Of a stretch of DNA of 39,328 bases, positions 8,937 to 10,743 are shown in pieces. The position numbers and the translations under genes are program-made. The number at the start of each line of letters is the position of its first letter. Position 1 is the first letter of the stretch. This stretch comes from Collimonas sp. OK607 (GTDB lineage Bacteria > Pseudomonadota > Gammaproteobacteria > Burkholderiales > Burkholderiaceae_D). The stretch spans positions 1 through 39,328 of the forward strand of contig NZ_FOKF01000041.1 in assembly GCF_900111995.1 (NCBI RefSeq), read 5' to 3'. Under the pieces are notes generated by a model, which had not been told where the DNA came from, made no database searches, and saw only the letters and a list, made by a program, of their open reading frames with translations.

Positions 8937-9025
8937 TTTGAGCCCCATATCGGCGGTCACTCTGGACAACGCCGGATTGAATTAAATTGAATTGAATTGC
9001 CGTGTGCATTACAAAAATGCGGACG

Positions 9026-9056
9026 AAAAAAAACGCGGACCAGCCGCGCTTTTTTC
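9026..9056 (-). terminator. Candidate thrS attenuator terminator
   Basis: On the minus strand GAAAAAAGCGCGG (9056-9044) pairs with CCGCGTTTTTTTT (9038-9026) around CTGGT, giving an intrinsic terminator with an 8-T tract about 90 nt before thrS. Upstream segment 9077-9069 (GCCTTTTTC) can instead pair with the 5' arm GAAAAA. It can also pair with 9142-9134 (GAGAAAGGC) over all 9 bases, one of them G-U. This gives the 1:2, 2:3 and 3:4 choices of a classical attenuator. Confidence 0.7.
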
Positions 9057-9082
9057 ATCATGCAAGTAGAAAAAGGCCTCGA

Positions 9083-9124
9083 CTAGTGTCGCTCACAGAT
9101 TGTGGTGGTAGTTCGCGGTGTCAT
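9083..9124 (-). CDS. Threonine-rich leader peptide of thrS
   Basis: This 13-codon ORF reads MTPRTTTTICERH, so five residues are Thr (ACA, ACT, ACC, ACC, ACA), four of them consecutive. AAAGG lies 10 nt before its ATG. It sits between a candidate extended -10 promoter (9220-9250) and the terminator hairpin at 9026-9056, all upstream of threonyl-tRNA synthetase. By analogy with E. coli thrL, ribosome stalling at Thr codons when charged tRNA-Thr is scarce would favour the antiterminator and raise thrS expression. The ORF and pairings are seen directly; the regulatory role is inferred. Confidence 0.65.
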   Translation of the reverse strand: MTPRTTTTICERH

Positions 9125-9219
9125 AACCGGGATGCCTTTCTCGCTCTTACAGATGTTGAATTCGTTTTAGTTGACCAGCTGCAAATAAAGATAACAGCGA
9201 CGACAACAGAATGCTACCG

Positions 9220-9250
9220 ATCATACCAGAAAACCGGTGCGGCATGGCAA
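9220..9250 (-). promoter_or_regulatory. Candidate thrS promoter
   Basis: On the minus strand TTGCCA (9250-9245) and an extended -10 TGGTATGAT (hexamer TATGAT, 9225-9220) are spaced by 19 bp. Transcription would start near 9213 and give a leader of about 275 nt covering the Thr-rich ORF and the attenuator. It begins just past the stop of the outer-membrane factor gene. Confidence 0.5.
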
Positions 9251-9264
9251 GTGCACAATATATT

Positions 9265-10743
9265 CTATTGTGTGCTGCCTAAACCCTCACCTCCTGCGCG
9301 ATTCCACCAACCTCCTCCCAAGGCCTGGAACAAGGCCGCCGTATCGGCGAACCGCGCCGCCTGCGCTTGCGCCAGGTTGATCACCGCTTGTTGGTAGGCT
9401 TGTTGCGCAGCCAATAAAGTCTGCGGACTGGACGCACCCAGCTGCACCGATTTTCGCGAGATCTCAAGGCTGTGTGCGGCAGCGCGTTCGACGAAGGCCT
9501 GCGCCTGCAACGCATCGGCATCGTATTGCAAGGCGCGCAAACTGTCGGCGACGTTCTGGAAGGCGAGGATCACTGTGCTTTTATATTGTGCCGCGGCCTG
9601 CTCCAGCAAAGCTTCCGAAGCACGCTTCTTATGCAACAGCGCGCCACCGGCAAACAGCGGTTGCGTCAGACCGCCGACAAGACTCCACAAACCGGTACCC
9701 GAGGTAAATAAATTCCCCATCTCCGCCGCCGCACTGCCGATATTTGCGCTCAAGGTAATCTGCGGCAGCATGCTTGCCGTAGCAACACCGACAGCGGCGC
9801 TGGCAGCGTGCAACTGTGCTTCAGCAGCACGTACATCCGGCCGTTGCTGCACCAGGCTGGACGGCAAGCTGACCGGCAATTGCTGCGGCAGACTGAGGCT
9901 AGCAAGATCAAATTTCTGCTCCAGCTCCTGGCTTGGGAAGCGCCCGGTCAAAGCGGTCAGACGATCCCGTTGTTGCGCCAGGGATTTCTGCAATGGCGGC
10001 AAACTGGCCCGGGTCTGCGCCAGTGCTGTCTGTTGCGTCAGGACATCAGCTTGTGCGACATCGCCTAATGCATACTGGCGCTGCAACAATTCAAGCAATC
10101 CGGCCTGGACCTTGAGTACCTCCTGGGTGGCGGTTATCTGCGCGCGCAGTCCTGCTTCCTGTATCACGGCCTCCACCACATTCGAGGTCAACGTCAGGTA
10201 AGCCGCTTCCAGCAGAAATTTCTGCTGTTCGGCTTGTGCCTGCAAACCTTCCACCTGGCGCCGATTACCGCCAAACGCATCCAATGTATAAGACACGCTG
10301 ACCTGCGCCGTATGCAAATTGAATGGCGAAGTGCCCTGCCCGGCCGACTCCGGCTGTTTTTGCCTGGTCGGCGTCAGGCTGGCATTGACGCTCGGGAAAA
10401 ACGCCCCCTGCTGCACCGACACTTGTTCCTGCGCCGCACGTAGTGCCGCGTGCGCCGATTGCAGATCGGGGCTGGCCTTGAGTGCTTCCTCGATAACAGC
10501 GTTCAATGCCGGTGAATTGAACAGCGTCCACCACTGGGCAGGAATATCCATGCCATCGACAAACTGCTGCGCATCGCCGCCCAGCGTAGCTGCGGACGAA
10601 GTTTTTGCTTGCAACGGCTCTTTGGTATACCCCTGCACCTGGGGCGCATCCGGCTGTTTAAAATCCGGTCCGGCCGCACAGCCTGACAGTGCCAGTAGCA
10701 CCGCCAGCGCTGAAGCCCTGAGTTTAAAATCTATTGCGTTCAT
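9265..10743 (-). CDS. NodT-type outer-membrane efflux lipoprotein
   Basis: This is the outer-membrane factor of the tripartite RND system: a trimeric channel carrying substrate from periplasm to exterior. The 492-residue product has a signal peptide and lipobox (ALSGC, Cys22), then the two repeats of the TolC-like alpha-barrel. Each repeat is rich in Ala/Gln coiled-coil (LRAAQEQVSVQQGAFFPSV in the first, AQLHAASAAVGVATASMLP in the second). The C-terminal GGGWWNR tail is typical of the NodT/OprM lipoprotein subgroup. A good SD (AGGTGA) precedes the ATG at 10743. It is last in the operon, 36 bp after the pump gene. Confidence 0.93.
   Translation of the reverse strand: MNAIDFKLRASALAVLLALSGCAAGPDFKQPDAPQVQGYTKEPLQAKTSSAATLGGDAQQFVDGMDIPAQWWTLFNSPALNAVIEEALKASPDLQSAHAALRAAQEQVSVQQGAFFPSVNASLTPTRQKQPESAGQGTSPFNLHTAQVSVSYTLDAFGGNRRQVEGLQAQAEQQKFLLEAAYLTLTSNVVEAVIQEAGLRAQITATQEVLKVQAGLLELLQRQYALGDVAQADVLTQQTALAQTRASLPPLQKSLAQQRDRLTALTGRFPSQELEQKFDLASLSLPQQLPVSLPSSLVQQRPDVRAAEAQLHAASAAVGVATASMLPQITLSANIGSAAAEMGNLFTSGTGLWSLVGGLTQPLFAGGALLHKKRASEALLEQAAAQYKSTVILAFQNVADSLRALQYDADALQAQAFVERAAAHSLEISRKSVQLGASSPQTLLAAQQAYQQAVINLAQAQAARFADTAALFQALGGGWWNRAGGEGLGSTQ

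Follow-up and report, generated by a model that had tools for sequence, protein, structure and literature searches.

How thrS is controlled in Collimonas sp. OK607 is the question raised by a 39,328-nucleotide stretch of its genome (contig NZ_FOKF01000041.1, positions 1 to 39,328; hereafter, the window). In E. coli, thrS is the textbook synthetase gene whose product uses a tRNA mimic, the thrS operator, to repress its own translation. For the Collimonas gene, the original prediction had instead proposed a leader-peptide/terminator switch, and the comparative and folding evidence below supports it. We consider it very probable that this leader controls thrS as a ribosome-mediated transcription attenuator sensing charged tRNA-Thr; most likely the switch raises threonyl-tRNA synthetase (ThrRS) when charged tRNA-Thr is short.

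The elements of the leader and the surrounding genes are collected in Table 1. The predicted Thr-rich ORF is present in the leader, with the codons ATG ACA CCG CGA ACT ACC ACC ACA ATC TGT GAG CGA CAC TAG, and its five Thr codons occupy positions 2, 5, 6, 7, and 8. The AAGG within the purine block 5' of the ORF lies at a workable Shine-Dalgarno distance. The promoter-like site has TATGAT as its -10 hexamer (TTGCCA-19-TATGAT), and an extended -10-like motif was found 60-115 nt 5' of the leader ATG in 27 of the 29 leaders L002-L030, the window's own included; the site was absent from the output of a consensus promoter scan of the window. The predicted terminator with its eight T is likewise present in both the sequence and the fold, and can be written GAAAAAAGCGCGG-CUGGU-CCGCG-UUUUUUUU with a U8 tract (9056-9026, minus); a simple pattern scan returned only the plus-strand face of this hairpin and nothing on the minus strand.

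Table 1. Features of the thrS leader and neighboring genes in the window.
Feature	Position	Strand	Basis
Leader ORF MTPRTTTTICERH, 13 codons; stop TAG 9085-9083	9124-9083	minus	in 66/70 family leaders, window's own included
Promoter-like site: TTGCCA 9250-9245, 19-nt spacer, extended -10 TGGTATGAT 9228-9220	9250-9220	minus	sequence
Arm 1 GAGAAAGGC, including the leader ORF's Shine-Dalgarno-like AAGG	9142-9134	minus	sequence, fold
Arm 2a ACTAGTCG, overlapping the leader stop codon; partner 9046-9039	9087-9080	minus	MFE 3' of Thr5 ribosome
Arm 2b GCCTTTTTC; partner arm 1 or A-tract side of arm 3	9077-9069	minus	folds
Arm 3, 5' arm of the terminator with its loop, GAAAAAAGCGCGGCTGGT	9056-9039	minus	folds
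Arm 4 (CCGCG) and U8 tract of intrinsic terminator	9038-9026	minus	folds
thrS (ThrRS, 635 aa), controlled gene; start ATG 8936	8936-7029	minus	TIGR00418, 729 bits
infC, rpmI, rplT, pheS, pheT, ihfA, downstream of thrS	6968-1276	minus	order and strand

The ORF list also offers an alternative upstream TTG start for thrS at 8969. The same-strand gene 5' of the leader encodes an efflux outer-membrane factor and ends at 9265; after it, just 5' of the putative thrS promoter, is a near-palindrome, GCACACAATAGAATATATTGTGC, at 9280-9250 (minus). Downstream, the gene order thrS-infC-rpmI-rplT-pheS-pheT-ihfA was confirmed, and from order and strand these genes probably share one operon with thrS. The start codon of infC, the next gene after thrS, is apparently the non-canonical AUA (6968-6966, minus), with AAGGAAAC before it; infC is known elsewhere for a non-canonical start codon. 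A strong hairpin, GGGGCA..UGCCCC, and after it a T-rich stretch occupy the rplT-pheS gap (5531-5490, minus), and no Phe-rich leader ORF was obvious by eye near it. No tRNA genes were found in the window. None of the Rfam 15 covariance models reached its gathering score there, for T-box or any other Rfam element, the best sub-threshold match having an E-value of 0.16 (Leu_leader scored 18 bits against a cut-off of 50).

When 9250-9026 was shuffled with its dinucleotides kept, 35 of 3000 sequences contained a short ORF with at least five Thr codons, and none of 1500 had four Thr in a row; conservation, described below, is the main evidence against chance. The 277-nt fold that had been proposed for examination (minus 9213-8937) is only mildly stable (z = -1.5, with 15 of 200 shuffles as stable). 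The 131-nt fold of 9150-9020 has z = -4.0, and none of 200 shuffles was equally stable. Its minimum free energy structure includes the first predicted pairing, that of 9142-9134 with 9077-9069 (arms 1 and 2b), as nine pairs of which one is G-U, and the free RNA of the window folds as arm 1:arm 2 plus terminator. The second predicted pairing, of 9077-9069 with 9056-9050, can form, though it reaches no further than the A-tract side of the terminator. The antiterminator is longer than claimed, extending over the stop codon of the leader and the loop of the terminator, and its decisive helix, 9087-9080 with 9046-9039, was missing from the original prediction. With a ribosome holding Thr5 in its A site, the downstream RNA (9097-9026) folds into this antiterminator at -20.8 kcal/mol, against -14.9 kcal/mol for the terminator alone. 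The main helix joins ACUAGUCG (9087-9080) to CGGCUGGU (9046-9039), and further pairs are formed by GC 9077-9076 with 9049-9048, UUUUUC 9074-9069 with GAAAAA 9056-9051, and GCG 9092-9090 with CGC 9037-9035.

From this arrangement we infer a course of stalling, termination, and read-through that would respond to Thr-tRNA. The leader would be transcribed from a promoter 5' of the ORF. With ample Thr-tRNA, the ribosome would reach the UAG and cover arm 2, so that arms 3 and 4 would form the terminator; a ribosome terminating there should hide arm 2a, as this arm overlaps the stop codon of the leader. If the leader were not translated, arms 1 and 2 would pair, and the terminator would form too. When Thr-tRNA is short, the ribosome would stall at codons 5-8 and keep arm 1 off arm 2, its leading edge lying just before arm 2a (assuming a footprint that puts the edge at about nt 37 for a codon 8 stall, with arm 2a at nt 38-45 and the stop at nt 40-42). 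Arm 2 would then pair with arm 3 (9087-9080 with 9046-9039; 9074-9069 with 9056-9051), no terminator would form, and thrS would be transcribed.

This switch was computed for 66 family leaders and 46 other leaders by folding only the RNA downstream of the ribosome, which assumes no pairing across a stalled ribosome. The expected number of arm 2:arm 3 pairs in the family leaders was 0.9 in the free RNA, 8.7 with the ribosome stalled, and 4.7 with it at the stop codon; the corresponding values for the other leaders were 1.65, 7.2, and 5.8. Pairing was greater in the stalled than in the free state in 63/66 family and 44/46 other leaders, and greater than with a shuffled arm 2 in 64/66 and 37/46. 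It exceeded the stop-codon state in 63/66 family but in only 33/46 other leaders, and the 4.7 and 5.8 pairs left at the stop codon are sizeable. An order-level version of the test was given 34 of the 70 order leaders described below, of which 33 were counted; no terminator was found in L134, and L111 is among the 33 even though it was read in the wrong frame. In these 33, arm 2:arm 3 pairing in the stalled state was greater than in the free state in 32, than with shuffled arm 2 in 32, and than at the stop codon in 28, and arm 1:arm 2 pairing exceeded that of shuffled arm 2 in only 23.

We would like to note that the mutual exclusion of antiterminator and anti-antiterminator, which is characteristic of an attenuator, was found by computation only. 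When pairing across the ribosome was allowed, 6 of 7 family leaders, including the window's own, retained arm 1:arm 2 while the ribosome was stalled at codons 5-8, and the outcome was mixed in 14 other leaders. Additionally, the antiterminator covers the terminator's G+C core only in part, at 2.5 of 6 positions in the window's family and 4.4 in the others.

For comparison across relatives, a search for thrS at an E-value of 1e-150 identified the gene in 188 of 195 genomes of the family and 289 of 300 of the order. We examined 70 family leaders, of which 30 were returned automatically (the window's own included) and 40 were hand-picked for genus diversity, as well as 70 order leaders hand-picked from listed places. 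The short ORF with cognate codons expected of an attenuator was found in 66 of the 70 family leaders and not in the remaining four (L043, L063, L064, and L068). The original prediction had named orthologous leaders lacking both the Thr run and the paired arms as evidence that would count against it; these 66 have the Thr-codon ORF, and the arms are kept. The run of five Thr codons, on the other hand, is not conserved as such: Thr is present at position 5 in all 66 leaders and at positions 2, 6, and 7 in 64, 52, and 53, respectively, but at position 8 in only 26. Codons 6 and 7 vary among ACC, ACG, ACA, and ACT, which indicates that Thr itself is kept there, and codons 8-12 vary freely.

A point against the attenuator is that some leaders, such as L087 (MTPRTFLLKR), have only two Thr codons. 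Across the order, 28 of 70 leaders have a short ORF with Arg-Thr near its start, compared with a mean of 5.4 and a maximum of 10 in 50 shuffles. This dipeptide was the commonest; GS (22), VG (21), and GV (19) also exceeded the any-dipeptide shuffle maximum of 17, an excess that probably comes from frames through a tRNA-Val gene. A stricter pattern, RT.T in a short ORF, was too strict and retrieved 70 of the 140 leaders. By eye, the leader was recognized in 34 of the 70 order leaders, leaving about half without a recognizable ORF. In six order leaders in which no leader ORF was recognized (L110, L112, L117, L123, L130, and L139), a tRNA-Val gene is closely followed by a terminator and then thrS, an arrangement which, seen in several such leaders, suggests that the terminator may predate the leader peptide.

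The intrinsic terminator that an attenuator has before its structural gene is seen in the folds of the window's leader, and terminator-like hairpins within 260 nt 5' of thrS were found in 127 of the 140 leaders (69/70 family and 58/70 order), where shuffles averaged 2.5 of 140. The terminator might merely end transcription of the upstream gene, which in the window is the efflux outer-membrane gene and in many relatives tRNA-Val, with thrS having its own promoter after it and the ORF being incidental. The relatives in which tRNA-Val, terminator, and thrS follow one another without a leader ORF (L110, L112, L130, and L139) would fit such an arrangement, as would the 93 nt between the end of the window's terminator stem and the thrS start, which leave room for a promoter. 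We nevertheless consider it very unlikely, given that the ORF, its Thr codons, and the arms are conserved between the promoter-like site and the terminator and that the complementarity of the arms co-evolves, as described next. The stem ends within about 160 nt of thrS in 125 of the 127 leaders, and only 20-23 nt before its start in L077, L079, L081, and L101, which leaves little room for another promoter.

Co-evolution between families was assessed in 31 leaders, 29 from the order and two from the family (L002 and L048), leaving out three near-duplicates (L094, L097, and L099), L111 (read in the wrong frame), and L134 (no terminator found). For both arm 2:arm 3 and arm 1:arm 2, none of 5000 random re-pairings was as good as the observed partners. 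A leader's own partner beat the mean swapped partner in 21/31 cases for arm 2:arm 3 and 23/31 for arm 1:arm 2, and shuffled partners in 30/31 and 26/31, respectively, though it was the single best in only 3/31 and 4/31; the swap result may partly reflect base composition shared within a genome, which the shuffled control keeps. Other families build these helices from other sequences, such as UGAGCC with GGCUCA in L121, UGAACCCC with GUGCGGUUC in L135, and UUGAGCCCG with GCGGGUUUA in L137. Inside the family, the swap test gave no co-evolution and column shuffles gave little, because arm 1 and arm 2a hardly vary. Across 64 leaders, the helix equivalent to 9087-9080:9046-9039 was paired in 98.4% of cells and that of arm 2b with the A-tract of arm 3 in 76.5%; the value for arm 1:arm 2b, 87.1%, is a weak count taken alone, as a partner slid by two columns still gave 83.8%.

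The 18-mer core of the leader, TTATGACACCGCGAACTA, matched 118 stretches in the collection of named genomes. For 79 of the 80 matches listed, thrS follows on the same strand at a distance of 114-306 nt; the other lies at a contig end. Those listed include Massilia, Janthinobacterium, Duganella, Herbaspirillum, Cupriavidus, Variovorax, Acidovorax, and Comamonas, and a Collimonas fungivorans record (L245) has almost the same leader as the window. An RNA model of the element found one copy in the window's own genome (E-value 6e-29, next best 0.38), and phage records gave no match. This near-exclusive placement before thrS bears on whether the leader might chiefly act in trans, as a small RNA or through a functional small peptide, with attenuation secondary. 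Such a role could account for codons 2-5 and the block TAAGAGCGAGAAAGGC being nearly invariant at the nucleotide level, and yet 79 of the 80 listed core matches precede thrS, codons 8-12 are free to vary, and the arms and terminator co-evolve, so we regard it as highly improbable.

The near-invariance itself is considerable. Among the 66 family leaders, codon 2 is ACA in 63, codon 3 is CCG in 65, codon 4 is CGA in 65, and codon 5 is ACT in 63 and ACG in 3; the nucleotides around CGA-ACU are conserved beyond the needs of the Thr run, and CGA is kept although only 6 of the 289 Arg codons in 12 genes of the window are CGA. Much of the order retains the dicodon CGA-AC[U/G]. The purine block that forms arm 1 is also kept 5' of the ORF in 53 of 79 core-bearing records, some of which have an arm 2 seemingly complementary to the CGCGAAC codons instead (e.g., L200). 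In some records (L185 and L222), CGCGAAC is complementary to a downstream GUUCGCG, which may explain part of the CGA-AC conservation, though not that in the window's own family. We tentatively suggest, while thinking it rather doubtful, that the leader carries a second signal besides its Thr codons: with CGA in the P site, the ribosome may be especially sensitive to a lack of Thr-tRNA, or the terminated RNA, roughly 190 nt long, may act in trans. The Arg codon is replaced by CTG (Leu) in five of the order leaders given to the order-level switch test (L079, L084, L090, L094, and L098), so CGA is not strictly required. Mimicry of a T-loop or of 5S rRNA by CGAAC was also considered but not adopted.

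The E. coli precedent suggests that ThrRS might instead repress its own synthesis by binding a tRNA-Thr-like leader hairpin, with the terminator loop CUGGU as an anticodon mimic. The loop is often CUNGU, resembling the Thr anticodon loop, and of five matches to GCGGN5CCGCNT5 in the window's own genome, only the thrS one has a CUNGU loop. In contrast, loops such as CUAGC, CUCGA, and CUGGC lack the U of the anticodon-like GU. One pattern scan covering 110 nt detected the operator-type hairpin (YUNGUA loop) of E. coli in none of the 140 order leaders, whereas outside the order, 17 of 40 leaders (L145-L184) had operator-like hairpins just before thrS, with loops such as CUCGUA and UUGGUA. Autorepression of this kind is, in our judgment, extremely unlikely for the window's leader. 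ThrRS binding to the terminator loop, which CUNGU had suggested, was set aside because the loop is explained by its pairing with CUAGUCG.

Two of these 40 outside-order leaders contained MSTT ORFs, and both belong to one family, f60, which is probably the Xanthomonadaceae. In a sample of this family, thrS was found in 37 of 40 genomes, and 30 leaders were examined (L308-L337), 28 of which have an MxT (MSTT-type) leader ORF. The first Thr codon is ACT in all 28, and the next codon encodes Thr in 26. The computed arm 2:arm 3 pairing was greater in the stalled than in the free state in 25 of 26 leaders and greater than with shuffled sequence in 24 of 26; in two more, no terminator was found. A Thr leader-peptide attenuator on thrS appears to be used in much of the order and, separately, in a second family, while operator-like hairpins are present in some of the other Gammaproteobacteria that were sampled. 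It looks as though one thrS feedback device has been replaced by another. The attenuator would tie the supply of ThrRS directly to the charging of Thr-tRNA, and perhaps also that of the distal products IF-3, L35/L20, and PheRS.

The thrS leader shares its gene and a feedback on ThrRS supply with the E. coli operator, and differs in that the latter is a protein-binding tRNA mimic acting on translation. The E. coli pheST leader is also an attenuator in which a cognate-codon leader peptide controls a synthetase operon, there for Phe and sited before pheS. In the literature searched, we found no thrS leader attenuator described for Burkholderiales or Xanthomonadaceae, while older comparative surveys may contain one; a survey of premature terminators mentions ThrRS as an autoregulated RNA-binding protein of E. 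coli (PMC2965389). The amino-acid operons trp, his, and thr are under ribosome-mediated attenuators that have, like the thrS leader, an ORF with regulatory codons, 1:2, 2:3, and 3:4 pairings, and a terminator with a U-tract (PMC1183508). Unlike these, the thrS leader controls a tRNA synthetase gene, has few regulatory codons, and has an arm 2 whose start falls at the stop codon of the leader ORF and whose partner is the loop of the terminator. Leader-peptide attenuation has been predicted for thrS, trpS, leuS, and alaS in Streptomyces lividans, where a Thr leader peptide with two Thr (MKRVRPFLETTPGFVPAR) is proposed 5' of thrS (PMC8079986). That thrL-thrS arrangement differs in belonging to an actinobacterium, in the leaderless transcription of its ORF, and in its peptide, and its authors found no U-rich stretch. 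The uORFC-8-2 motif 5' of cysS in Rhodobacterales is a predicted ribosome-mediated attenuator that likewise precedes a synthetase gene, with a pair of conserved cognate codons and a run of U like that of a terminator, and that differs in concerning Cys, in occurring in alphaproteobacteria, and in its gene and codons (PMC8632094). Attenuation of synthetase genes is already known in kind, and the thrS leader is a well-supported new case of it.
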